From: a virus
Length of the DNA stretch: 36,471 nucleotides
Reading direction: 5' to 3' (one strand)
Virus record (IMG/VR): IMGVR_UViG_3300047550_004912
Span: 1 to 36,471 of that record
The notes beneath the pieces were generated by a model. The model was not told the DNA's origin, made no database searches, and was given only the letters and a program-made list of their open reading frames with translations. Positions within the stretch are counted from its first letter, which is position 1. Each line of letters opens with the position of its first letter. Below, piece by piece: positions 2,501 to 27,932 of the stretch. The translations under genes and the position numbers were made by a program.

Positions 2501-3130
2501 ATGAAACACAGCAAGCAAATCAAGCTGGTCCTCCTGGGTGCCGTCGCCGCGATCAGCCTAACGGCATGCGACGATGACGACACGCCCAAGGAAGGCCAAC
2601 CGATCTACGAGACCGTCGAGCAGTGCATGGCCGCCGGTGGTGTGGACTGTGACGCCAAATATTCCAGGGCGTTCGGTAATCACATAGCTAATGGTCCTAG
2701 GTACCAAAACCAGGACCAGTGCTTGTCCAACGGGCACGAGCGATGCACCAACGTGAGCACCGGAGTGGCAGAGATCTGGTTACCGGCGATGGTCGGGTTC
2801 ATGGTCGCACGGAGCTTGGAAAACAGCAGGCCCGTGTATCTCCAGGGGTACCCAAGCCCGGAGACCGACAGGGAACGCGAGGACCGACGGGTGGTCGCGG
2901 GGAGCGGTAACCGTGGAGGAGGGGCCGTTTTCATCGGCAGCTATAACGGTGGTGGCGGTTCTTACGTTCCGGGGACCCTAAGCACCTCGATGAGCAGGGG
3001 TGCGGCCAGGGCCGGGGTCGCCGTTGCTCCCCCGGCATCGGTACCGGGACGAGCGGCGGTGGCCGCACCGAGCGCGGCCGCCCGGGGTGGATTTGGTGCC
3101 AGTGGGCATGGTATGTCAGCAGGAGGTTAA
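2501..3130 (+). CDS. DUF1190-like lipoprotein (YjfM/YgiB-like)
   Basis: A 209-residue exported protein. Residues 1-23 form a lipoprotein signal peptide with a lysine-containing N-region, the core LVLLGAVAAI and a lipobox LTAC, so Cys would be lipidated and the protein tethered in the envelope. The mature part has a Cys-containing region (EQCMAAGGVDC, DQCLSNGHERC) typical of the DUF1190 family. The C-terminal half is low-complexity, rich in Gly, Ala and Ser (GNRGGG, YNGGGG, AAVAAPSAAARGG). I chose ATG 2501 because the signal peptide starts there and the promoter ends just upstream. In bacteria this family is encoded beside the YgiC/YjfC ATP-grasp enzymes and is their likely partner or substrate. 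Confidence 0.75.
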   Translation: MKHSKQIKLVLLGAVAAISLTACDDDDTPKEGQPIYETVEQCMAAGGVDCDAKYSRAFGNHIANGPRYQNQDQCLSNGHERCTNVSTGVAEIWLPAMVGFMVARSLENSRPVYLQGYPSPETDREREDRRVVAGSGNRGGGAVFIGSYNGGGGSYVPGTLSTSMSRGAARAGVAVAPPASVPGRAAVAAPSAAARGGFGASGHGMSAGG

Positions 3131-3131
3131 C

Positions 3132-4283
3132 ATGAAGCGCCACGTGATCAAGCCTCGCGAGGATTGGATGGAACGCGCCGAGGAGGTGGGTTTTACCTAC
3201 CACACGGCCGGGGTCCAAGGCCCCCGAGGAGAGGGCACATACTGGGACGAAAGCATCGCCTACGAGTTCACCTCCGCCGAGGTAGACGAGATCGAGGCCG
3301 CCACCGAGGAGCTGCATGCCCGCTGCCTCGATGCCGTGGATCGCGTGTTCAAGGATCGGGACCTCATGCTACGCATGGGCATCCCGACCGACTACCACGA
3401 TTACATCCAGTGGAGCTGGGCACGGCAGGATCCCAGCCTCTATGGTCGATTTGACCTGGCCTACGATGGCAAGGGCCCGCCCAAGATGCTGGAATACAAT
3501 GCCGACACGCCCACCATGGTGATCGAGACCGGTCTCATGCAGTGGTTCTGGCTCCAGGACGTTCGGCGGGGTGCTGACCAGTTCAACAGCCTGCACGAGA
3601 AGTTCATCGAGCGATTCGCCGAGGTCCGCGTGCAGATTCCCCCCGGCGAGCGCCTCTACTTCGCCGGATACCGGGAGAATGCCGAGGAAAGCCAGACCTG
3701 CAAGTACCTGCAGGACCTAGCCCAGCAGGCCGGGATCGACACCGAGTTCATCGACCTCGAAGAGATCGGATGGCTCGGCGAGCAGTTCGTGGACATGCAG
3801 GATCGTCCTATCAAGTACTGGTTCAAGCTCTATCCATGGGAATGGATGTTCACCGACGAGTTCGGCAAGAACACCAGGACCGATTGCTCGGGCATACTCG
3901 AACCCGTGTGGAAGTGCATCCTCAGCAACAAGGGCATCCTGCCCGTGCTGTGGGAGATGTTCCCGGATCATCCAAACCTCCTGCCCAGCACATGGACGGC
4001 CGAGGCCCAGCCGACCGGTAGCTACGTGAGCAAGCCCATGCTGAGCCGCGAGGGCTCGAACATCGAGCTGTACCAAGATGGGCGATCGGTGGAGACCACC
4101 GATGGTCCGTACCATGGACACAAGATCTTCCAGCAGAAGGCCAACCTGTTCGAGCAGGACGGCAACCATGCGGTGATCGGTAGCTGGATCGTTGGTAATC
4201 GGGCGGCCGGCATGATCATCCGCGATACCCCGCACATGATCGTCCAGGATCGTTCCCGCGTCGTTCCGCACTGGTTCCTGTGA
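3132..4283 (+). CDS. glutathionylspermidine synthetase-like ATP-grasp ligase (YjfC/YgiC-like)
   Basis: A 383-residue protein of the glutathionylspermidine synthase C-terminal (synthetase) family, which joins an amine to a carboxylate using ATP. Family signatures are KMLEYNADTPTMVIETG, YVSKPMLSREGSNIEL and IGSWIVGNRAAGMIIRD with the closing VVPHWF. The last REx glutamate position reads RD here. The amidase domain of bifunctional E. coli GspS is absent, as in YgiC/YjfC. A perfect AGGAGG at 3121-3126 precedes ATG 3132, one base after the lipoprotein gene ends, so the two are co-translated. The true substrates of YgiC/YjfC are not established. Peptide or lipoprotein modification has been proposed for the family, and a polyamine substrate is possible given the decarboxylase at 9049-9411. 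Confidence 0.88.
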   Translation: MKRHVIKPREDWMERAEEVGFTYHTAGVQGPRGEGTYWDESIAYEFTSAEVDEIEAATEELHARCLDAVDRVFKDRDLMLRMGIPTDYHDYIQWSWARQDPSLYGRFDLAYDGKGPPKMLEYNADTPTMVIETGLMQWFWLQDVRRGADQFNSLHEKFIERFAEVRVQIPPGERLYFAGYRENAEESQTCKYLQDLAQQAGIDTEFIDLEEIGWLGEQFVDMQDRPIKYWFKLYPWEWMFTDEFGKNTRTDCSGILEPVWKCILSNKGILPVLWEMFPDHPNLLPSTWTAEAQPTGSYVSKPMLSREGSNIELYQDGRSVETTDGPYHGHKIFQQKANLFEQDGNHAVIGSWIVGNRAAGMIIRDTPHMIVQDRSRVVPHWFL

Positions 4284-5947: not shown

Positions 5948-6180
5948 TACCCTGGACCACGAACATAACCAAGGAAGAGCTCAACCGATCCTGGCATCCC
6001 GTGTGGGTGGCTGATCACATGGACGACACGAGGGCGCTTGGTCCAACGTTCGACATGATGATCAAATGGTGTGAAAACAACTGCACCGATCAGTGGACGA
6101 TGGCGTGGTACCAGGATTATCTGGCTTACTGGTTCAAGATCAACGATGATGCCGTGATGTTCCGGATGGTGTGGCGATAA
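5944..6180 (+). CDS. small protein of the W..N/V..TW paralogous family, member C
   Basis: A 78-residue protein starting in an ATGA overlap with uvdE. It contains MMIKWCENNC followed by WTMAWYQDYLAYWFKI and ends AVMFRMVWR, matching the layout of members at 1786-2028 and 4283-4582. Its stop codon lies inside the late-type box at 6177-6185. Function unknown. Confidence 0.7.
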   Translation: MIPWTTNITKEELNRSWHPVWVADHMDDTRALGPTFDMMIKWCENNCTDQWTMAWYQDYLAYWFKINDDAVMFRMVWR

Positions 6181-6185
6181 ATATC
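6177..6185 (+). promoter_or_regulatory. late-type promoter box ATAAATATC
   Basis: ATAAATATC matches the T4 late consensus TATAAATA in seven of eight positions and recurs (TAAATATC or TAAATAATC) before many genes in this window. It stands 25 bases upstream of ATG 6211, overlapping the stop codon of the preceding gene. No -35 box is expected for such promoters. Confidence 0.6.
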
Positions 6186-6210: not shown

Positions 6211-7329
6211 ATGAAGCTCAAGACCATATTGGATCAGATGAACCTACGGCAGGAGCCATCGTCGATGGACCTGGACGTTTCAACCAGGCTTGGTCCAACC
6301 ATATCGCAGCATCTAACGGCACTCGAAGCACTGTGCAAGCTGTTGCCAAACTGCATCGAATTGCAGGAAAAACTTAATGAGATCAAGGGCCTTTTTGCCG
6401 CATCGGTACCGTTGCAGAGCAACGTGCTAGAAGCATCCTCGAGGCGCGAGGACTATCCGGTGGTGTATGAATATGATCCAAGCAAGCCGATCGAGCAGCA
6501 GAGGCTCGCGGTGATAGGCGGCGCCGGATCATATACCATGGAAAGCCTTGATACCAAGGTCAGGAGAGAGTTTGATGAGCTCTCCCATCGCATCGATGAG
6601 ATCCAGACGATCAAGAATTACGCGGATCGAGGTCCATCCTATCGAAAGGCCCAGCACATTGCCGGTATCCTAGAAAATCATCTCCTGACCATGGTAGTTG
6701 GCATCAACCAGATCGAGGAAAAGTCAACGGCCGACGAGATGGAGGAAAGTTCCGAAACAATGGTGGATGAGGGCCTGCGGGATCTAGCCGCAAGCTGGTG
6801 GAACAAGGGCAAGACCTACATATTCGACCGCTTGCCAAGCAACATCAGCATTGGACAGGCAAAGGCCGCTTACATCGACCTCGCCACACAGATATCCCTC
6901 GCGATAGATGAATATCCGGATCAGGAAAGCCTCAAGGAACCACACGCGATCACCAAGATCGTGGATCGCGTCATGAAGAAGATACTGCCCAATCTTGATC
7001 CAAAGATGGCCGACAAGGCCAGGCATGCGATCGACACCACCGTGAAGACCGCGATCAACGGGATAACACAGACCGGACGGTTGGAGATCATCATACCGGT
7101 GGTGGCTATAATCGCATACACCATGCTAAAGCATCGCACCAATGAAACCGATGACGACATGGATGATCAGATCAGGTCGGCGCATGTCATGGAGATGTAC
7201 GAGACCATGAGCCCGGGCATGGGGGACAAGGCGTGGGTGGCCATAACCAAGAGGCTCAAGGCCGAGGGCTATGATGCTGATTTAGTTGAGCGCATGATCA
7301 ATCGGGCCATCATTCTCAAGGGGTCTTGA
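6211..7329 (+). CDS. 372-residue protein with N-terminal leader motif and one membrane segment
   Basis: I chose ATG 6211 because GGAG at 6201-6204 is well placed; an in-frame TTG at 6199 would overlap it. The N-terminus MKLKTILDQM fits the MK(I/L)xxLL-like leader seen in four following genes. The body is charged and helical (DTKVRREFDELSHRIDEI, ADEMEESSETMVDEGLRD). A single hydrophobic segment near residues 288-304 (LEIIIPVVAIIAYTML) is followed by an acidic region. A late-type box lies upstream and a hairpin overlaps the stop. No family is recognised. The expression class suggests a virion or assembly protein, but this is inference. Confidence 0.75.
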   Translation: MKLKTILDQMNLRQEPSSMDLDVSTRLGPTISQHLTALEALCKLLPNCIELQEKLNEIKGLFAASVPLQSNVLEASSRREDYPVVYEYDPSKPIEQQRLAVIGGAGSYTMESLDTKVRREFDELSHRIDEIQTIKNYADRGPSYRKAQHIAGILENHLLTMVVGINQIEEKSTADEMEESSETMVDEGLRDLAASWWNKGKTYIFDRLPSNISIGQAKAAYIDLATQISLAIDEYPDQESLKEPHAITKIVDRVMKKILPNLDPKMADKARHAIDTTVKTAINGITQTGRLEIIIPVVAIIAYTMLKHRTNETDDDMDDQIRSAHVMEMYETMSPGMGDKAWVAITKRLKAEGYDADLVERMINRAIILKGS

Positions 7330-7345: not shown

Positions 7346-7349
7346 AACC

Positions 7350-7359
7350 ATAAATAATC
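7350..7359 (+). promoter_or_regulatory. late-type promoter box ATAAATAATC
   Basis: ATAAATAATC sits five bases past the hairpin and 21 bases before ATG 7381. It is the TAAATAATC form of the repeated box (also at 17683 and 30314). It probably drives the 7381-8639 run of late genes. Confidence 0.6.
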
Positions 7360-7380: not shown

Positions 7381-7731
7381 ATGAAGATACGGGAGTTGTT
7401 AGAGTCTTCCAACAAGGCCGAGATAGCCAGCGGCGTGCAGGAGACCATGCCACCGTCCCTGTCAGTGGAGGACATGGATCAATATTACGAGTATTATCGG
7501 TTCGCCGTGGCCATCGCCGGGATGCCGGAAAACGAGGGCATACCCATAAATGGCCCCATCAATGACAATCCGTGGATCGCCCCTTATAGTGCTGCTGAGC
7601 ATGATCATGTGATGGCGGTACTTAGGAAGATGGGAAAGAATCCCAAGCATCTCACCAGGAAACCAAGCTGCGAACCAGATTGGGTGAACAAATCCAGCCC
7701 GGTGAGGCCTTTCAAGGACCTAAACCCATGA
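7381..7731 (+). CDS. leader-bearing late protein, paralog 1
   Basis: A 116-residue protein beginning MKIRELLESS. After the leader come ETMPPSLSVEDMDQYYEYY and a C-terminal signature SCEPDWVNKSSPVRPFKDL. The next gene encodes a clear paralog with STMPPTVVIPEL and SQEPKHINSASPVRKFVDF, so the conserved core is xTMPP...QYY...SxEPxxxNxxSPVRxF. IRE and LLE in the leader resemble the (L/I)xE cleavage motif of T4-type prohead proteases. No biochemical function is known to me. The gene sits directly under a late-type box and ends in an ATGA overlap. Confidence 0.75.
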   Translation: MKIRELLESSNKAEIASGVQETMPPSLSVEDMDQYYEYYRFAVAIAGMPENEGIPINGPINDNPWIAPYSAAEHDHVMAVLRKMGKNPKHLTRKPSCEPDWVNKSSPVRPFKDLNP

Positions 7732-8099
7732 AGATAGCAGAACTATTGGAAAATTTCCGGGCAGCACCTCTGCGAAAGGATCTGGTATCGACGATGCCGC
7801 CTACCGTGGTGATACCAGAGCTACAGAACAATGATTCCTACACGCAATATCGATACTTGATGGCATTGGCATCAGCCGAGGCCATCAGGCGCGGAGAGGT
7901 TGCCATGGACCAGGAAAGCGCATGGAACGAAAACACCGCCGTTGTGTGCTATGCTCCGGAAGAGCTCGAGATAGTTGATATGGCAAACAAGATGATGGGC
8001 GTGACCGGTAGGAAGATATCGTCAACACCTAGCCAGGAACCAAAGCACATAAATTCCGCCAGCCCGGTCAGGAAGTTCGTGGATTTTGGTAAGGATTGA
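7728..8099 (+). CDS. leader-bearing late protein, paralog 2
   Basis: A 123-residue protein starting MKIAELLENF at an ATGA overlap. A longer frame from 7680 is a shadow. It is a tandem paralog of the preceding product, sharing the leader, TMPPTVVIPELQ, the tyrosine-rich YTQYRYLMALA segment and the closing SQEPKHINSASPVRKFVDF. The duplication is old, since identity is limited to these blocks. It is followed after six bases by the Acb1-like gene, so the three probably form one late transcript. Confidence 0.75.
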   Translation: MKIAELLENFRAAPLRKDLVSTMPPTVVIPELQNNDSYTQYRYLMALASAEAIRRGEVAMDQESAWNENTAVVCYAPEELEIVDMANKMMGVTGRKISSTPSQEPKHINSASPVRKFVDFGKD

Positions 8100-8105
8100 T
8101 CTAAG

Positions 8106-8639
8106 ATGAGACTGTTGGAACTGTTTGATCCAAAGCAAATCAGCGTTGGCCCGGAAAACATCGATGATGCCGGCAGCGTCGCGGATCGACCAAGGCATGA
8201 GCACGGCACCATAGTCCTGCTCGAGCTCACCGAGGACAGCGCGGCATCGATAGGCGAATGGTGCAGAGATCATGGTATCCCATGCATCGACGGCAAATCA
8301 CTGCACTGCACGGTCCTGTTCAGCCGCAAGCCGGTAGAACATCTCTGTGAGCTGGATGGCAAACCGGTTAGGATACTTGGACGGATCAAGTCATGGAAGA
8401 AGCTCGGGGAGGCCTTGACCCTTGAGCTAGAAGCTCCCATGGCATGCAAGCTGCATGAATGGATGATCTCCCAAGGAGGTACCCATGACTATCCGGAATA
8501 CATCGCCCATACCACGGTATCATATGAATGGCCAACGGACGAGCTTCCGGTTGACAGTCCTCGGATGGTGATGGAATTTGATAGATTGGTTGTAAAGCCG
8601 ATCGATCCGAAGTATGATAACAAATCAAAATCCGATTGA
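8106..8639 (+). CDS. 2H phosphoesterase, anti-CBASS Acb1-like (T4 gp57B-like), with N-terminal leader
   Basis: A 177-residue protein with the two HxT motifs of the 2H phosphoesterase fold: SLHCTVLFSRKPVE and YIAHTTVSYEW. The surrounding sequence (GGTHDYPEYIAHTTVSY) resembles what I recall of T4 gp57B/Acb1, which hydrolyses the cyclic oligonucleotide signals of CBASS immunity. Other 2H enzymes (LigT, CPDase) share HxT but not the DYPEYI block. Residues 1-32 (MRLLELFDPK then an acidic linker) precede the catalytic domain and match the leader of neighbouring late proteins. It lies in a late-type transcription unit, an odd place for an immune inhibitor unless it is packaged. Function is inferred from motifs. 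Confidence 0.78.
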   Translation: MRLLELFDPKQISVGPENIDDAGSVADRPRHEHGTIVLLELTEDSAASIGEWCRDHGIPCIDGKSLHCTVLFSRKPVEHLCELDGKPVRILGRIKSWKKLGEALTLELEAPMACKLHEWMISQGGTHDYPEYIAHTTVSYEWPTDELPVDSPRMVMEFDRLVVKPIDPKYDNKSKSD

Positions 8640-8653
8640 AAGGACATGAAATA

Positions 8654-8989
8654 ATGGCTATAACATATGATTGGAGCTTTTCACAGTTCGATACCGCTCC
8701 TAGCAAGGACGGGCTAACGGACGTCGTCGTTGTCGTCCACTGGCGGCTGACGGCTATCGATGGCGAATACGTCGATTCATCATACGGAACGGTGACCATG
8801 CCGGATCCAAATCCGGCTGATTACGTTCCGTATGATCAGATCACCAAGGATCTAACGATCGAATGGGTATCCGGGATTCTGGATGTTCCGGCGATAGAAG
8901 CAAATCTAGCCCTGAGGATCGAGCAGCAGAAATCCCCACCGGTCGTACCGATGGTTCCGCCGTTCGACAATTCCGCCACCAGCGAGTGA
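8654..8989 (+). CDS. conserved small phage protein (MAITYDW family)
   Basis: A 111-residue acidic, strand-rich protein: MAITYDWSFSQFDTAPS, then DVVVVVHWRLTAIDGEYVD, YVPYDQITKDLTIEWV and a tail QQKSPPVVPMVPPF. The layout (MAITYxW, VHWRL, PYDQLT, WV, NPPVVxPPxPW) recalls a small protein family that I remember as common in T4-like and marine myoviruses, with no experimentally known role. ATG 8654 has AGGA nine bases upstream. It is followed by the hairpin at 9017-9046 and a convergent gene. Confidence 0.7.
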   Translation: MAITYDWSFSQFDTAPSKDGLTDVVVVVHWRLTAIDGEYVDSSYGTVTMPDPNPADYVPYDQITKDLTIEWVSGILDVPAIEANLALRIEQQKSPPVVPMVPPFDNSATSE

Positions 8990-9048: not shown

Positions 9049-9411
9049 TCAAGCCTGTCTCGTGAGATAAGTGACCCTGAGGGTCTTTGCTCCGAAGAAT
9101 TCCTTGACCGTGTCAATGACGGTCTGATTTTCGTAAGGCTTGCAGCTGAACACATCGATGTAGCATGTGTTGTCGCGATCAACGAAGTGGGCCGCGATGT
9201 TGGAGGTTTCAATGAGCTGCATCATCGAAAATCCAGCTTTCTGTGGATCGTGGGCAGCAAAATGCTCAACGATCGGATCGCCGTATGCGACCATGTCGAT
9301 CCTTTTCACCAGCTCCTTGGTAAACTCCTTGATGTTGTTCCCATCGGTGATCTTATCGTGATCACATCCACCGCAATCCAGGACCAAGTGATAACCCCAA
9401 TAGTCGCTCAT
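9049..9411 (-). CDS. speD: S-adenosylmethionine decarboxylase-like proenzyme (SpeD/SpeH class)
   Basis: A 120-residue protein matching the short class of pyruvoyl-dependent decarboxylases: GYHLVLDCGGCD near the start, LIETSNIAAHF and YIDVFSCKPY. Ser70, His75 and Cys90 have the same spacing (5 and 15) as the pyruvoyl-forming serine, processing histidine and catalytic cysteine of Thermotoga SpeD. The usual Glu-Ser-His is Thr-Ser-Asn, so self-processing or substrate choice may differ; some SpeD homologs decarboxylate arginine or ornithine instead. Decarboxylated SAM is the aminopropyl donor for spermidine. The start is ATG 9411 with GAGGAGG upstream; the longer frame to 9462 runs through the promoter box. 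It is one of only two minus-strand genes in the window. Confidence 0.82.
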   Translation of the reverse strand: MSDYWGYHLVLDCGGCDHDKITDGNNIKEFTKELVKRIDMVAYGDPIVEHFAAHDPQKAGFSMMQLIETSNIAAHFVDRDNTCYIDVFSCKPYENQTVIDTVKEFFGAKTLRVTYLTRQA

Positions 9412-9440
9412 ATTCATCCTCCTCGTAAAGAACGTGGACT

Positions 9441-9447
9441 TATTTAT
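9441..9447 (-). promoter_or_regulatory. late-type promoter box (minus strand) for the decarboxylase
   Basis: On the minus strand ATAAATA lies 29 bases before ATG 9411, with GAGGAGG between. It forms a divergent pair with the plus-strand box at 9477-9485, so the intergenic 9412-9541 holds two late-type promoters firing outward. Confidence 0.55.
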
Positions 9448-9476
9448 GGGCATGGTTACCACATGCCACGAAAGTC

Positions 9477-9485
9477 ATAAATATC
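9477..9485 (+). promoter_or_regulatory. late-type promoter box ATAAATATC
   Basis: An exact copy of the 6177-6185 box. The following 56 bases to ATG 9542 contain a 13-codon ORF (9490-9531) beginning MKICDQVYG right after the box, which could be a leader peptide or chance. Confidence 0.6.
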
Positions 9486-9541: not shown

Positions 9542-10087
9542 ATGAAATTGCTTGATTTCCTAGATCAAGGACCACTTGACCAACCAACGCCAACGCCGCA
9601 AGCTTTAGCATACAGGTACGGAGTCATGATCGATGACGTGTTTGACCAGCTGGCATATGGTACCATGATAGAGATGGAACATACCACCAGCGTACAGGCG
9701 GCAATGGAGATCGCGCTTGATCATCTGAACGAGCGATTTGATTACTATGAGCGCTTGGTAAGCGTCGAGCAGCCAGAGGGAGAGATCGATCCGTGCCAGT
9801 CCGACGGTCCGGATGGAGAAATTGACGAGAAGTTCAGGCTCGGCCAGCCAGGAAAGAAACGGAAGAAGATATATCCGGGTCAAAGCTCAGCAACCCTGGC
9901 AAACTACGTTGCCCGCAAGTGGGGCGGAGAGGTTGGTTGTGGTCGCGCTAGCCAGATCGTCAATGATCCGGACGTTAACAATAATATCAAGAAGAGGGCC
10001 GTATGGTACCGAAGCCTACATTGCAAGGGTCGAAAGCAAGTGAGGGAAATGGATCCCTTGATCACTACGGACCAGGAGCAGCGTTAA
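9542..10087 (+). CDS. leader-bearing late protein with a DUF5661-like core
   Basis: A 181-residue protein. Residues 1-10 (MKLLDFLDQG) match the shared late leader. Residues 35-80 contain GTMIEMEHTTSVQAAMEIAL then DHLNERFDYYERLVSVE, the pattern (EHT...A..IA..HL.E..DYY..L) of the DUF5661 phage family. The C-terminal part is basic (GKKRKKIYPG) and ends with ARKWGGEVGCGRASQIVND and a Lys/Arg-rich region, suggesting nucleic-acid contact. Function unknown. Its last 85 bases overlap the next gene in another frame, so one of the two boundaries may be misassigned. GAGAGG precedes ATG 9542. Confidence 0.7.
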   Translation: MKLLDFLDQGPLDQPTPTPQALAYRYGVMIDDVFDQLAYGTMIEMEHTTSVQAAMEIALDHLNERFDYYERLVSVEQPEGEIDPCQSDGPDGEIDEKFRLGQPGKKRKKIYPGQSSATLANYVARKWGGEVGCGRASQIVNDPDVNNNIKKRAVWYRSLHCKGRKQVREMDPLITTDQEQR

Positions 10088-13912: not shown

Positions 13913-16678
13913 ATGTATGTTGATGCGTTCCTGGAAAGGGAAAAGAACCAGATCCTAGTCGTCGAGAGAGACCGCAAGGGCCAGAGGCAGTTTGTCGCGC
14001 ATCCAACGAAATACATCGCATATTGGCCCAGCCCAAAGGGCAAGGTACCGAACATACACGGGGAGATGTGCGACAAGTTCCAGACCAACAAGCTGAAGGA
14101 ATTCCAGAGGGAGACCAGCATGCTGCCCAAGAGCGGGCTGCATGAGAGCGACATAAATCCCATCTTCAGGTGCCTCTATGACCATTACAAGGGAGCACCG
14201 AGCCCGGATCTCCACGTGGCCTTCTTCGACATCGAGGTCGACTTTGATCCAGAACGAGGGTTTTCCAGCCCCGACGATGCGTTCGCGCCGATCACGGCAA
14301 TATCGGTCTATCTAAACTGGCTTGATCGCAATTTTACCATGGTGATCAAGCCAAAGAACATGAGCACCGAGGATGCGCAGACCATCGTCGATCGGTTCGA
14401 TGACACGGTGCTGTGCTCGAGCGAGAAGGAGCTGCTGGAGATATTCCTTGGTTTGATCGAGGATTCCGACATCATGAGCGGTTGGAACTCGGAAGGATTC
14501 GATATTCCCTACATCCATAATCGCATCGTGCAGGTCCTCGGCAAGGAGGAGACCAGGAAGCTGTGCCTATGGGGCAAGCTACCAAAGAGGCGCGAATATG
14601 AAAGCTATGGCCGTGATACCGTGACATACGATCTGGTAGGTAGGATCCACATGGACTACCTACAGCTTTACCGGAAGAACACCTACCACGAGATGCACAG
14701 CTATCGGTTGGATTTCGTGGGCGAGTTTGAGGTCGGCGAGAAGAAGATCCACTATGAGGGCAGCCTGGATGCCCTATACAATAACGATTTCGAAAAGTTC
14801 ATCGAGTATAACCGGCAGGACGTCATGCTGCTGGTCAAGATCGATCGCAAGAACAAGTTCATCGAGCTGAGCAACAACCTCGCCCATGAAAACTGCGTGC
14901 TTCTTGGCACGACCATGGGAGCCGTGGCGCTGATCGACCAAGCCATCGTCAACGAGGCCCATGACCTCGGGATGGTGGTGCCCAATCGCAAGAGGGAGGA
15001 AACCGGAGGTGGGAGTTCCGGCGACGACGATGACGATGAAGTCAACATATCCGGGGTGGTTGGAGCATACGTTGCCGATCCCAAGGAAGGCATGCACGAT
15101 TGGATCGGCGGCGTTGACATCAACAGCCTGTATCCGTCCGCCATTCGGGCATTGAACATGAGCCCGGAAACCGTGATTGGACACATCCGGTCGGAGCACA
15201 CCGACAAGCTCATTACCAAGAGGATGGGAGCTGAGAAGAAAAGCTTTGCTGACTCGTGGAACGGTATGTTCGGCACGCTGGAATACAACCAGGTGATGAA
15301 CCAAGACCTCACGCCGATCACGATAGATTTCGAGGATGGTTCGACCACCACGGTCAGCGCCGGAGAGCTTTATGATCTGGTCTTCAAGAGCGGGAAGAAG
15401 CTGATACTGTCGGCCAACGGCACTCTCTTCACCATGGAAAAGAAGGGCATCATCCCGGGATTGCTGGCAAGATGGTATGCGGAGCGAAAGCAGCTACAGG
15501 CCGAGATGCGCAAGTATGCCAAGATGGCTGACGAGGAATCAGATACGGAGAAAAAGAAGGAGCTCAAGAAGCAAGCAGACTTCTACGACCAGCGCCAGCT
15601 GATCAAGAAGATCCTCTTGAACAGCCTCTACGGCGCTATCGGTAATCCTGGTAGCCGATGGTATGATCCACGTGTCGCGCAGAGCGTGACACTGAGCGGG
15701 CGCTGCATCGTCAAGCACATGCAGAGCAAGATCAACGAGATCATCACCGGAGACTACAACCACCTTGGCATTGCCTGCATATACGGTGATACCGATTCAG
15801 GTTACTTCTCCGCATACCCGGTAATGAAGGATCTTCCGGAGTTCAAGGACTTCGAATGGACCAAGGAGAACGTCAGCAAGCTGTATGACGACATCGGAGA
15901 CATGACCAACGAGTCATTCCCGGCTTTCATGAAGCAGGCGTTCAATTGTCCCGAGGAAAATGGAGCGATCATCAAGGCGGCACGAGAGCTATGTGCTTCC
16001 AAGGGACTGTTTATCACCAAGAAGCGTTACGCGGTGCTGGTATATGACAAGGAAGGCAAGCGAAAGGACACCAACGGCAAGCCCGGTGAGATCAAGGCCA
16101 TGGGCCTTGATCTCAAGCGCAGCGATACTCCGAAGATCGTGCAGGACTTCCTCAGCGACATCCTCACGCAGGTGCTGACCGGTAACACGGAGGGAGACAT
16201 CCTCGACAAGATACTGGAATTCCGCAAGGAATTCCGCAGCTGGCCGGGTTGGTCGAAGGGTTCTCCCAAGCGTGCCAACAAGATCACCTACTATGAAAAC
16301 CTGATGAACAGCCAGGGAAAGGTTGATTGGAAGGGCACCGAGACCAACAAGAAATCAATGGTTCCCGGACACGTCTTGGCCAGCATCAACTGGAACAGGC
16401 TCAAGCGGATACACGGAGATCACTATTCCATGCCCATCCAGGATGGGTTCAAGGTGATAGTCTGCAAGCTTCGACCGAACCCAAGCGGGATCACATCCGT
16501 GGCATACCCGGTCGACGAGCTCAATCTCCCGGAATGGTTCAAGCAGCTACCGTTCGATGACGAGGCCATGGAGGCCGCGCTGATCGACAAGAAGGTCAAG
16601 AATCTTCTCGGCGTGCTGAACTGGGATCTAGACTCAAACAAGGAAGCCAACAGCTTTGGCGACCTATTCAGTTTCTGA
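13913..16678 (+). CDS. family B DNA polymerase with 3'-5' exonuclease (T4 gp43-like)
   Basis: A 921-residue replicative polymerase, near T4 gp43 (898). Exonuclease motifs are FFDIEVDFD (about 104), SGWNSEGFDIPYI (about 189) and YNRQDVML (about 299). Polymerase motifs are DINSLYPSAIRALN (about 403), KILLNSLYGAIGNPGSRWYD (about 566), YGDTDSGYF (about 624) and KKRYAVLV (about 703). Catalytic aspartates are all present. It copies phage DNA with the sliding clamp encoded downstream at 16895. A Gly/Asp-rich insert (GGGSSGDDDDDE, about 364-375) lies just before the palm. AGAGG seven bases before ATG 13913 fixes the start. No frameshift or intron is visible. Confidence 0.97.
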   Translation: MYVDAFLEREKNQILVVERDRKGQRQFVAHPTKYIAYWPSPKGKVPNIHGEMCDKFQTNKLKEFQRETSMLPKSGLHESDINPIFRCLYDHYKGAPSPDLHVAFFDIEVDFDPERGFSSPDDAFAPITAISVYLNWLDRNFTMVIKPKNMSTEDAQTIVDRFDDTVLCSSEKELLEIFLGLIEDSDIMSGWNSEGFDIPYIHNRIVQVLGKEETRKLCLWGKLPKRREYESYGRDTVTYDLVGRIHMDYLQLYRKNTYHEMHSYRLDFVGEFEVGEKKIHYEGSLDALYNNDFEKFIEYNRQDVMLLVKIDRKNKFIELSNNLAHENCVLLGTTMGAVALIDQAIVNEAHDLGMVVPNRKREETGGGSSGDDDDDEVNISGVVGAYVADPKEGMHDWIGGVDINSLYPSAIRALNMSPETVIGHIRSEHTDKLITKRMGAEKKSFADSWNGMFGTLEYNQVMNQDLTPITIDFEDGSTTTVSAGELYDLVFKSGKKLILSANGTLFTMEKKGIIPGLLARWYAERKQLQAEMRKYAKMADEESDTEKKKELKKQADFYDQRQLIKKILLNSLYGAIGNPGSRWYDPRVAQSVTLSGRCIVKHMQSKINEIITGDYNHLGIACIYGDTDSGYFSAYPVMKDLPEFKDFEWTKENVSKLYDDIGDMTNESFPAFMKQAFNCPEENGAIIKAARELCASKGLFITKKRYAVLVYDKEGKRKDTNGKPGEIKAMGLDLKRSDTPKIVQDFLSDILTQVLTGNTEGDILDKILEFRKEFRSWPGWSKGSPKRANKITYYENLMNSQGKVDWKGTETNKKSMVPGHVLASINWNRLKRIHGDHYSMPIQDGFKVIVCKLRPNPSGITSVAYPVDELNLPEWFKQLPFDDEAMEAALIDKKVKNLLGVLNWDLDSNKEANSFGDLFSF

Positions 16679-20065: not shown

Positions 20066-20869
20066 ATGTACTATGTTTACATCTATTTGGATCCGTATTA
20101 TCAGGAGCTTCATACAGCGTTAGATTATGAATTTGATTATCGCCCGATTTACGTGGGTAAAGGTACTGGTGATCGTATGTTTGATCATTTGAAAGGCACA
20201 AAGAACAAAATATTTGAAAATAAAATCCAACACTGGCAAAAGAATGGTGTGCAACCTATCATTCGGGTATTGAAAATGATGGATCTGGAGGCGGCTGCGT
20301 TTGATCTAGAACGAGAACTGATATGTACCATCGGTAGATTCGACCAAGGTAAAGGACCGTTGTTAAATCTTACTGACGGTGGGGAAGGTGTATCTGGGCA
20401 TGATCCGTGGAACAAGGGTCGTAAAGGTCTATACGTTGCATCTGAAGCTACTCGAGCTAAACTCAGCAACGCATTACGTGGCAAACCAAAGCCAAAAGAT
20501 TTCGGGGAAAAGGTCAGTCGCGGCCTAAAAGGCAAGACAAAGACTGCCGCCCATCGGCATGCATTAAGTCAGGCTAATATTGGTAAGACGAGTCCACTAA
20601 AGGGACAGCCTAGCAGACAATCTGCCGAATCTCATGCCAAGGCAGCTGATAAACGTAAAGAATGGTGGACGCCAGAACGTCGAGAAGCCAAACGAGCACA
20701 GTTTGTTGGGAAGAAGCTATCCAATGAACACAAGGCTAATTTGGCGTTAGCGATGGAAAAGGTTAGAAAACCGCACAGTGAAGAAACTAAACTCAAGATG
20801 AGTGAAAAGCGTAGGCAGTATTGGGCTGCAAAGAAAGCACAGGACACAGATGAACTTCACAAGAAATAA
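20066..20869 (+). CDS. GIY-YIG homing-type endonuclease (Seg-like)
   Basis: A 267-residue free-standing mobile nuclease. The catalytic domain opens MYYVYIYLDP and continues RPIYVGKGTGDRMFDHL (Y-Y, YVGKG, Arg) with the Glu in DLERELI. The C-terminal part carries NUMOD3-type DNA-binding repeats: NKGRKG, SNALRGKPKP, LKGKTKT, IGKTSPLKG, VGKKLSNEHKAN and KPHSEETKLKMSEKR. Codon use is much richer in A and T than neighbouring genes, a sign of recent arrival. GGAGA before ATG 20066. Its 3' end overlaps the start of DpdA by 20 bases in another frame, so it sits at the very edge of a DNA-modification gene. Confidence 0.9.
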   Translation: MYYVYIYLDPYYQELHTALDYEFDYRPIYVGKGTGDRMFDHLKGTKNKIFENKIQHWQKNGVQPIIRVLKMMDLEAAAFDLERELICTIGRFDQGKGPLLNLTDGGEGVSGHDPWNKGRKGLYVASEATRAKLSNALRGKPKPKDFGEKVSRGLKGKTKTAAHRHALSQANIGKTSPLKGQPSRQSAESHAKAADKRKEWWTPERREAKRAQFVGKKLSNEHKANLALAMEKVRKPHSEETKLKMSEKRRQYWAAKKAQDTDELHKK

Positions 20870-23541: not shown

Positions 23542-24213
23542 ATGACAGCTCCGAGCGAAATAATCAGGAATAGGCTAAAGCAAAAGGACCAGAAGTTCTT
23601 TTGCAATGACAACATCAGTGAAGTGATGGAAGGCATCGATTTTGATGCACTGGTGGATGAGGTCACCGGAAAGATGCAGGGTGTCCTAGACAGCCTCGTC
23701 ATCGATACCGAAAACGATCACAACACCCAGGAAACGGCCCGCCGGGTGGCGAAGATGTTCGTCCTGGAGACCTTTTCCGGGCGTTACCAACCCCAGCCGA
23801 AGATCACCGCGTTTCCCAACGCAAACCAATATGATGAGGTATACGTTACCGGACCAATCACCATACGCAGCACCTGTGCCCACCATTTCCAGGGCATCAA
23901 GGGCAAGTGCTACATCGGGGTCTTCCCTGGCAAGAACGTGATCGGTCTCAGCAAGTTCAATCGGTTGGTCGACTGGATCTCATCCCGTCCGCAGATCCAG
24001 GAGGAGATGACCGTGCAGATCGCCGATGCCGTCATGGAAGCGACCGAGGCCGAGGGTATCGCAATCCTGGTGCAGGCAGAACATATGTGCATGACCATGA
24101 GGGGTGTGAGGGAGCATGATTCTGCAATGACCACATCAGTAATGCGCGGAGTTTTTAGGGACGACCCTAGCATGAAGCAGGAGTTTTTCAACATAGTCTC
24201 CAAGATGCCGTAA
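23542..24213 (+). CDS. folE: GTP cyclohydrolase I (FolE), precursor synthesis for 7-deazaguanine
   Basis: A 223-residue enzyme that converts GTP to dihydroneopterin triphosphate, the first step toward 7-deazaguanines. DNHNTQETARRVAKMF-type helix, ITIRSTCAHHFQGIKGKCYIG (zinc Cys and His), VIGLSKFNRLVDWIS and AEHMCMTMRGVREHDS (second zinc Cys, active site) are all present. Tandem ATGs at 23539 and 23542; AAAGGA fits the second. The last 28 codons (24127-24213) occur again, about 70 percent identical, at 25115-25201 after an inserted endonuclease gene. The present tail ends FFNIVSKMP and is complete, so the enzyme should work. Confidence 0.93.
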   Translation: MTAPSEIIRNRLKQKDQKFFCNDNISEVMEGIDFDALVDEVTGKMQGVLDSLVIDTENDHNTQETARRVAKMFVLETFSGRYQPQPKITAFPNANQYDEVYVTGPITIRSTCAHHFQGIKGKCYIGVFPGKNVIGLSKFNRLVDWISSRPQIQEEMTVQIADAVMEATEAEGIAILVQAEHMCMTMRGVREHDSAMTTSVMRGVFRDDPSMKQEFFNIVSKMP

Positions 24214-24263: not shown

Positions 24264-25118
24264 ATGGTCGCATATGTTTATAGTCTTCGATTCAAAATTA
24301 CCGGACAATGGTATGTTGGATGTAGATATGCGAAACATCTTACAGATGAAATGATTTCGAACGATCTATGGATCCGATATTTTACCTCGTCGAAATTAGT
24401 TCGATCTTTGATAAAAACATATGGCTATGATTCATTTGAACCAAAAATTAGACGAGTATTTTCTAACTCGGACGATGCTAAGTCTTACGAAGTTTCACTT
24501 CTTAAAAAGGTCAATGCTCGTACAAATCCTGCATTTTTGAATCAATGCAATTCGGTATTTGAAAATGCACCAGCACTGTCATGGATTACAAATGGTATCA
24601 TAGATACCATGATAGCAGCCAATAAACCAATAATACCCGGATTTTGGTATGGAAGATCGAAGAATAATAAAAACCGCAAATACGACGAGTCCCCGTTGAA
24701 AGGTCGAATCCATGTCTTAGATTCGGACCTAGAACTTCGTCGAATGATATTAGCATCAGACTATGATCCGACTAAGCATGTAAAATTACATAATGATTTC
24801 AATAAGGATCGTTTGTGGGTGTATAGCCCTATTACAAATGAATGCAGATTGATCAAGAAGGGTGAACAAATCCCAAAAGGATGGCAGCGAGGTAACCCGC
24901 ACAGAAGCGCAGCTTCTTGGTTCCACAACCCAATCACCGGTGAACAACGACAATTATCAATAGGTTCTACTCCGCCTGATGGATTCATCAAGGGAAGGCC
25001 TGTCACACATGCATGGTTCGTTAATCTAGAAACCAACGAAAACAAGCTCTGCAAAATAGACGAACCTCCGCCGATAGGTTACATTCGAGGGAGAACATTG
25101 AAGGAAAAGAAACTATGA
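24264..25118 (+). CDS. GIY-YIG-like homing-type endonuclease inserted at folE
   Basis: A 284-residue protein. VAYVYSLRFKITGQWYVGCRYAKHL gives the GIY-YIG pattern (YVY ... WYVGCR), and SYEVSLLKKV supplies the catalytic Glu region. The C-terminal half has repeated ~25-residue modules, each with W-x-x-x-P/L-T-x-E plus a GW/GF-xxGxP turn: LWVYSPITNECRLIKKGEQI, SWFHNPITGEQRQL and AWFVNLETNENKLC, each followed by PxGxxxGR. These look like DNA-recognition repeats. AT-rich codon use differs from the folE and queD genes on either side. The stop overlaps a relic of the folE 3' end (ATGA). Confidence 0.8.
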   Translation: MVAYVYSLRFKITGQWYVGCRYAKHLTDEMISNDLWIRYFTSSKLVRSLIKTYGYDSFEPKIRRVFSNSDDAKSYEVSLLKKVNARTNPAFLNQCNSVFENAPALSWITNGIIDTMIAANKPIIPGFWYGRSKNNKNRKYDESPLKGRIHVLDSDLELRRMILASDYDPTKHVKLHNDFNKDRLWVYSPITNECRLIKKGEQIPKGWQRGNPHRSAASWFHNPITGEQRQLSIGSTPPDGFIKGRPVTHAWFVNLETNENKLCKIDEPPPIGYIRGRTLKEKKL

Positions 25119-27050: not shown

Positions 27051-27932
27051 ATGTTTGGTAAGAATGAAATTACCGGTCAAAAGTATTTTGACAAGGCCGA
27101 GGACAAGCTTTTCGTCACCTCGATCTTCTATACCCTCCAGGGCGAGGGTCCGTATCGCGGAGAACCGGCCGTTTTCGTGAGGCTAGCCAAGTGTAACTTG
27201 AATTGCAGCTTCTGCGACACCTTCTTTGATGACGGCGACTGGTTGACCATTGACGAGATAGAGTCTCGCATACACAAGGTGATCAACGATCATTTTGACG
27301 GACAGGTCCCGCTGTGGGCCGATGAGGTATGGGGAGGCAACGGAGATGTGCCGGCCAAGCCCAGGGACATGGTGCTGGTCATCACCGGCGGAGAACCGAT
27401 GCTACAGAAAAATCTGGTCCCCTTCCTGGAGCGCATGGAGACCAGATTTGCCAAGACCCAGATAGAAAGCAACGGCACCATCGTTCAGAACATACCAAAG
27501 AGCACAACGTTGGTGGTCAGCCCTAAGTGCAGCGAGAAGAAGGGCGTGGCGATCAAGTATCTGGAACCCAAGCCGGAAATGCTGGCACGTGCCAACTGCC
27601 TCAAGTTCGTCATGAGTGCTGACCCTGATAGCCCGTATTCCTCGGTGCCAGATTGGGCACATGAATGGAAGGCTAGGACTGGTAATCCGGTGTTTGTCAG
27701 TCCGATGAACATCTACAACAGTGAGCCACAGAAGAGCAAGCAGTTGAGAGCATCCACCAATCAGATCACCATCGAGGAACGCAGCACCGTCGACGAGGTG
27801 ATCTCGTTTTGGACCCCTGGACTACTGAACATGCAGGAAAACCAAAAGAACCACGAGTATGCGGCTAAGTATGCGGCTAGGCACGGCATGATACTTAATT
27901 TGCAAGTCCATCTCTATTGCAGCCTTGCCTGA
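27051..27932 (+). CDS. queE: QueE, 7-carboxy-7-deazaguanine synthase (radical SAM)
   Basis: A 293-residue radical SAM enzyme that contracts 6-carboxy-tetrahydropterin to 7-carboxy-7-deazaguanine (CDG). SIFYTLQGEGPYRGEPAVFV at residues 24-43 and LAKCNLNCSFCDT with the CxxxCxxC-type iron-sulphur ligands (the family often has a longer first spacer) are diagnostic. VLVITGGEPMLQ is the SAM-binding GGE motif, QIESNGT follows, and the closing ARHGMILNLQVHLY matches the family's C-terminus. GAGGA eight bases before ATG 27051. With FolE and QueD it completes the route from GTP to CDG. No QueC is visible in the window. Confidence 0.92.
   Translation: MFGKNEITGQKYFDKAEDKLFVTSIFYTLQGEGPYRGEPAVFVRLAKCNLNCSFCDTFFDDGDWLTIDEIESRIHKVINDHFDGQVPLWADEVWGGNGDVPAKPRDMVLVITGGEPMLQKNLVPFLERMETRFAKTQIESNGTIVQNIPKSTTLVVSPKCSEKKGVAIKYLEPKPEMLARANCLKFVMSADPDSPYSSVPDWAHEWKARTGNPVFVSPMNIYNSEPQKSKQLRASTNQITIEERSTVDEVISFWTPGLLNMQENQKNHEYAAKYAARHGMILNLQVHLYCSLA

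Follow-up and report, generated by a model that had tools for sequence, protein, structure and literature searches.

The acb1 locus and its phage

The window, that is, the whole stretch of DNA analysed, spans an entire IMG/VR record (36,471 bases), which is itself a genome fragment and contains no head genes. The acb1 locus also occurs on one further contig (L002), which encodes an identical Acb1. The DNA polymerase encoded in the window (13913-16678) is nearest to those of Sinorhizobium phage Phosso and Agrobacterium phage Atu_ph07 (46-48% identity), followed by those of RaK2-type phages. These are T4-related giant myoviruses, and judging by the DNA polymerase the window phage belongs to the same clade. 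The genomes of Phosso, Atu_ph07 and G015, the last of which is syntenic with the window, are 469 kb, 490 kb and 452 kb in length, respectively. A megablast search of 20 kb of the window against phages returned zero matches, indicating that the window phage is not closely related to any isolate phage compared.

Acb1 is a known phage enzyme that destroys bacterial alarm molecules, the CBASS signals. The initial annotation described the acb1 open reading frame (Table 1) as an Acb1-like enzyme with two HxT motifs and a DYPEYIAHTTVSY block, preceded by about 32 additional N-terminal residues starting MRLLELFDPK. The motifs and the block were found where they had been placed, at residues 67-69, 135-137 and 128-140, respectively. 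Ahead of codon 104, translation could begin only at ATG 8106 or TTG 8115; since codon 4 is followed by no further start codon until codon 104, the leader must be translated and cannot be the product of a misplaced start, and no fewer than 27 residues preceding the Acb1 domain are unavoidable in translation. The open reading frame and its leader are therefore real, and so is the extension: about 30 residues precede the conserved domain, which begins at H31-E-H-G-T, and the extension is 24 residues longer than the N-terminus of T4 Acb1 and 19-26 longer than those of the orthologues in L015 and L014.

Table 1. Features of the acb1 locus in the window, and loci at which Acb1 is a domain of a longer protein
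Feature	Position or loci	Strand	Remarks
GATAAATA box	6176..6183	+	before leader gene A
Leader gene A (MKLKTILDQ...)	6211..7329	+	hydrophobic segment near C-terminus
CATAAATA, T4-late-type promoter box	7349..7356	+	32 nt ahead of the operon's first gene
Leader gene B (MKIRELLES...)	7381..7731	+	acb1 operon; leader L6-x-E8 in homologues
Leader gene C (MKIAELLEN...)	7728..8099	+	acb1 operon; leader [LI]6-x-E8 in homologues
acb1, Acb1-family 2H phosphodiesterase	8106..8639	+	177 aa, ATG start; PF23474, PHROG 755, AlphaFold2 model against 7t26
N-terminal leader MRLLELFDPK and linker	8106..8195	+	residues 1-30; low model confidence; LLE at 3-5, LFD at 6-8
First catalytic motif, H67-C-T69	8304..8312	+	T4 H44/T46
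Second catalytic motif, H135-T-T137	8508..8516	+	T4 H113/T115
DUF7936 gene	8654..8989	+	last of acb1 operon, without leader; Pfam PF25590
CATAAATA box	9476..9483	+	before fifth leader gene
Fifth leader gene (MKLLDFLDQ...)	9542..10087	+	DUF5661 domain; Pfam PF18905
Portal proteins with C-terminal Acb1 domain	L028, L034, L047, L055, L056, L062, L064, L070, L072, L075, L084, L089
DUF6267 + cytidylyltransferase-like + Acb1	L016-L021, L045, L170-L186		about 740 aa; leader MKLF[ND]LLP; LTE or LEE, then A

Identity of the enzyme

The Pfam profile PF23474 (Acb1) matched residues 34-168 of the product with 66.9 bits, well over its cut-off of 27 (E 2e-18), and with 67.1 bits in the genome-level profile search, and the match to PHROG 755 (the gp57B family) agreed with this assignment. 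The LigT_PEase and 2_5_RNA_ligase2 profiles gave no match at E up to 1, and PADLOC had no model for the product. In an AlphaFold2 model based on 42 viral sequences, pLDDT exceeded 90 throughout the Acb1 domain and was about 50-55 for residues 1-20, residues 1-24 being modelled as unstructured. The solved structure closest to the model was FBB1 Acb1 (7t26; Z 18.0, rmsd 1.8 A, 131 residues aligned), followed by the phosphodiesterase of phage BCSR5, while LigT and a plant CPD reached Z of about 11 (LigT, Z 11.4, rmsd 3.2-4.4 A); the predicted fold was thus nearer to Acb1 than to LigT by a wide margin, and a structure closer to LigT, which the initial annotation had named as a refuting result, was not obtained.

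The catalytic and base-contact residues of T4 Acb1 were named by Hobbs et al. (PMC9117128). In our alignment the T4 tetrad H44/T46/H113/T115 corresponds to H67/T69/H135/T137, of which H67 and T69 were invariant among the 42 homologues. Since the Pfam match, the fold and the catalytic tetrad agree, it is nearly certain that the product is an Acb1-family 2H phosphodiesterase, as had been proposed from the motifs.

The base-contact positions are less uniformly conserved. W74 of T4, which stacks on the nucleobase, corresponds to W97, and aromatic residues are kept at F107 (Y129) and W147 (Y170). However, the base-stacking Y12 aligned with I36 and the adenine reader E141 with K164 (window 8595-8597), the latter position being K, T or A across the Acb1 clade of the window; both substitutions rest on an alignment in which the C-terminus is loosely conserved and in which, for E141, the T4 sequence was shifted by hand by one column. 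The E141 position bears on specificity, and nothing in the comparison marks it as necessary for belonging to the family. We read the product as a true Acb1 with a base preference that may differ. These substitutions would favour an alternative in which the leader delivers the enzyme, as discussed below, but the substrate differs from the T4 Acb1 set, either through a shifted base preference or because another oligonucleotide, cyclic or linear, is cut, such as the cA3 of type III CRISPR systems or 2'-5' or 2',3'-cyclic species. We consider it improbable, as the tetrad, W97 and the aromatics Y129 and Y170 are retained, the model fold is nearest to Acb1 and not to LigT, and 3'3'-cGAMP and cAAA were cleaved by each of nine further Acb1s that Hobbs et al. 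tested (PMC9117128).

A late-type transcription unit

The assignment of acb1 to a late-type transcription unit was supported at the sequence level: the CATAAATA box at 7349 is followed by four closely spaced genes, of which acb1 is the third. In Phosso and Atu_ph07, NATAAATA was found mostly 28-45 nt upstream of virion-type genes, such as those for tail sheath and baseplate-type proteins, and it also precedes the portal genes in G015 and G017; from this position, NATAAATA is probably the T4-type late box of the clade of the window phage. The CATAAATA box was found in relatives ahead of tail sheath, neck and portal genes, the roles of these virion genes being partly recognised by sequence. Late expression alone is no argument for packaging, because in T4, too, Acb1 activity did not appear until about 15 min into the infection (PMC9117128).

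Several other genes of the window deserve mention. A gene for S-adenosylmethionine decarboxylase (9049-9462, minus strand) lies behind a CATAAATA box at 9448 and would be an unusual late gene; a second polyamine gene, for glutathionylspermidine synthase, lies at 3126-4283. The GTP cyclohydrolase gene (23542-24213) and the QueE-like radical SAM gene (27051-27932) are consistent with a predicted 7-deazaguanine DNA modification. Two matches to PHROG 314 homing endonucleases were located at 20066-20869 and 24264-25118.

A family of N-terminal leaders

Five genes within 4 kb (starts at 6211, 7381, 7728, 8106 and 9542) begin with leaders, namely MKLKTILD, MKIRELLE, MKIAELLE, MRLLELFD and MKLLDFLD, all of which fit M[KR][LI]xx[LIF]x[DE]. 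The likeness of the acb1 leader to the N-termini of neighbouring late proteins, noted in the initial annotation, exceeds chance: in the window, the motif M[KR][WLIYFVM]..[LIFVM].[ED] matched 5 of 74 N-terminal ATGs and none of 324 internal ATGs (p=2e-4). This final motif was derived from the window together with Atu_ph07, having been widened after inspection of Atu_ph07, so that G015 and G017 serve as the independent tests. It was enriched in Atu_ph07 (22/1280 N-terminal vs 6/2623 internal, p=8e-7), in G015 (12/934 vs 4/2888, p=3e-5) and in G017 (6/311 vs 0/1154), and a narrower first motif, taken from the window alone, had 8 matches in Atu_ph07 with 0.5 expected. Phosso had two leaders only and showed no enrichment, indicating that leaders are not equally common in all members of the clade. 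A T4-spaced expression for capsid-targeting sequences (h..hh.E) was tried in its strict form and rejected, since Phosso, G015 and G017 showed no enrichment of it and Atu_ph07 only a weak one; the leader of the clade is therefore a shorter, eight-residue version and not that of T4.

A late box directly precedes three of the five leader genes of the window and none of the 46 other ORFs, and in Atu_ph07 leader genes lie behind late boxes at 9/22, as against 47/772 (p=5e-6). In G015 this association was absent (0/12), though leaders were enriched. Twelve of the 22 Atu_ph07 leader genes are located between gp043 and gp063, inside the CDS 31-76 cluster; mass spectrometry of virions detected 29 proteins, counted over the whole of that cluster, in a study that lists 131 virion proteins for Atu_ph07 (PMC6102473). 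The fifth leader gene of the window has similarly placed counterparts in L015 (MKLLDVLDSD) and L166 (MKLSEFIDQP).

Other leader proteins were observed in the course of this survey. In the virion-protein cluster of Atu_ph07, gp053-gp063 (L161:8485-19593) form a tandem array of proteins with MRWEQLTE-type leaders, among which gp053 contains a zeta-toxin/AAA domain. The ADP-ribosyltransferase ART-PolyVal gave a weak match to another leader protein, encoded elsewhere (L143:10373-10885). The hydrophobic segment of the leader gene A product is EIIIPVVAIIAYTML; the protein matched no family and could, from its sequence, be an injected membrane protein.

Resemblance to T4 capsid-targeting sequences

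The capsid-targeting sequences of T4 comprise about 10 residues, are recognised mainly via residues 4 and 7, and are cut by gp21 after L/I-x-E (PMC9026906). In the leader of gene B, L6-x-E8 was conserved in 6/6 homologues (33-61% identity), with no invariant residue in the next 15 positions; in that of gene C, [LI]6-x-E8 was conserved in 4/4 homologues, with I6 in L166. Phosso, Atu_ph07, G015 and G017 each have genes for a prohead protease of the S77 (gp21-like) type and for capsid proteins resembling gp23, and the propeptides of their major capsid proteins end in LME, LME, LFE and LAE, respectively, just before a conserved [NT]A.. start. As the propeptides of all four relatives end in L-x-E, the predicted protease of the clade very probably also cuts after this motif.

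In the acb1 leader, the family position 6-8 reads LFD instead of L-x-E, and LLE occurs at residues 3-5. An Asp at the cleavage position of T4 IPIII blocks processing but not targeting (PMC9026906). The acb1 leader, MRLLE|LFDPK, lines up with the start of T4 Alt, MELITE|LFDED, LLE standing ahead of LFD; Alt is packaged, is cleaved at ITE-6 (PMC5694885) and, according to its sequence record, enters the host with the phage DNA. T4 Acb1 itself (57B, L012:8953-9411) starts MMEFKDFST, near the MKTFKEFTST of the adjoining IPI (ipI, 8592-8879), and has F at both position 4 and position 7, which are reportedly important for the capsid targeting of IPIII.

The leader is thus real and does not reflect chance, and the sequence patterns taken together make it rather probable that it belongs to the capsid-targeting type. 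That it would serve as a packaging signal, as considered in the initial annotation, is plausible: it belongs to a family with properties like those of T4 capsid-targeting sequences, but it has D where the family usually has the E of the protease site, and it is missing from two of four syntenic orthologues, as described in the next section.

Leaders on Acb1 orthologues and on Acb1s of unrelated phages

Among the four syntenic free-standing acb1 orthologues, that of the window has the full leader, that of L015 a short one (MKLFEIEQDID), and those of L014 (55% identical; start MNES-HEHGT) and L166/G015 (53% identical; start MGQQLYEN-HAHGT) none, although the neighbours of the leaderless genes do carry leaders (B and C in L014, C in L166). 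Its absence from two of four orthologues weighs most heavily against the view that the leader is essential for packaging. This absence also agrees with an alternative in which the product is an ordinary late intracellular Acb1, as in T4, with a leader that was recombined from neighbouring late genes and is tolerated, packaging being nil or inefficient. That T4 Acb1 acts from about 15 min and that CBASS also fires late (PMC9117128) accord with it, as does the departure of LFD from the L-x-E rule. However, the leader is intact at M1, K/R2, L3 and L6 and has an acid at position 8, its L-E-L-F-D wording matches packaged T4 Alt and the leaders of Phosso and G017, and such leaders are also present on independent Acb1 lineages. 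We regard an ordinary intracellular Acb1 as a serious possibility, about one in three by our reckoning, but not the leading one.

The free-standing Acb1 of an unrelated lineage, G016/G017, begins with MKLFELLEKE, and a second leader, MKLLELFDTD, lies behind a late box in the G017 genome. Three further Acb1s start MSFKQFIAEEQ (L039), MIRSFSEFITEA (L081) and IKFSEFLKEQ (L031), close to the MKTYQEFIAEA of T4 IPIII. Leader-like starts were found on 12 of 33 free-standing Acb1s and on 28 of 471 neighbouring genes (p=1e-6), a comparison that overstates independence, as the L058/L066 pair is near-identical, ancestry is shared and some starts abut the first strand. Those lying at most 10 residues from the first strand could be structural.

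Acb1 domains in longer proteins

In the first alignment search, 30 of 80 Acb1 loci proved to be domains of long proteins, seven of them in the DUF6267 fusion group. The Acb1s next closest to that of the window (41-43%) form the C-terminal domain of a DUF6267-cytidylyltransferase protein starting MKLFNLLP...SLTEA; the L170 fusion starts MKVVDLLP...RLEEA and lies behind AATAAATA. Twelve of the 13 other long Acb1 proteins scanned were portal proteins (Phage_portal_3 or Portal_Mu). The Acb1 profile also matched residues 481-617 of the Pam3 cyanophage portal (8hds_A, E 7.5e-20), which contains HVT and HIS motifs, and a search of the open-access literature for Acb1 together with portal protein returned nothing relevant. 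These portal fusions, including that of Pam3, suggest that virion-borne Acb1-like domains probably exist in other phages, irrespective of the window.

A model for virion-borne Acb1

We propose that acb1 would be expressed late from the T4-type late promoter along with two other leader-bearing proteins, and that its leader, as one of the capsid-targeting leaders of the clade, would bind the prohead core. A gp21-like protease may trim the leader at LLE|LFD, as T4 Alt is trimmed at ITE|LFD. Some Acb1 would then enter the head and be ejected along with the DNA; the next host would thus receive the enzyme before phage genes are expressed, and the enzyme would linearise CBASS cyclic di- and trinucleotides via metal-free 2H chemistry. 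For the window Acb1, we infer the activity, targeting, cleavage, ejection and early action. Whether the window Acb1 is packaged and injected seems to us about evenly balanced on the sequence evidence, and the same even chance applies to the whole proposal of a late-made Acb1 with a capsid-targeting leader that is carried in the head and ejected with the DNA. A broader reading, that virion Acb1 is a recurrent strategy for clearing CBASS signals before expression, achieved through a leader on free-standing Acb1 (the window phage, G016/G017 and L039/L081/L031), a DUF6267-cytidylyltransferase fusion that itself bears a leader, or a portal fusion, is plausible but falls somewhat short of an even chance.

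Injected phage counter-defences against restriction are known, namely IPI-III and Dar. If the proposal is correct, injected counter-defence extends from restriction to nucleotide second messengers, and some phages defuse the CBASS alarm at entry, whereas CBASS is thought to fire late. The leader also suggests a genomic way of listing injected effectors in giant phages of the RaK2/Atu_ph07 type, and the portal-Acb1 fusions make the question of virion carriage testable on a virion with a solved portal structure.

Comparison with known systems

The window Acb1 shares with T4 and FBB1 Acb1 (gp57B; 7t26/7t27) the fold, the HxT/HxT tetrad, the base-stacking W and PF23474; however, identity is 21%, E141 and Y12 are replaced by K164 and I36, the window protein has about 24 extra N-terminal residues, and its gene is not beside genes 1/57A. 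The leader resembles those of T4 Alt and IPI-IPIII in being short and N-terminal, with spaced hydrophobic residues and late-type expression, and LLE|LFD recalls the ITE|LFD of Alt; it differs in having D at residue 8, and the prohead protease is known here from relatives only. Atu_ph07 (gp043, gp053-gp063) and Phosso (MRLFELFDG) have the leader motif, the late box and the clade in common with the window, whereas their cargo proteins differ, and Acb1 was absent from both genomes. The Acb1-bearing portals, such as that of Pam3 (8hds), can be likened to the window Acb1 in placing the domain on a virion component, but they do so by covalent fusion instead of a putatively cleavable leader and in phages unrelated to that of the window.
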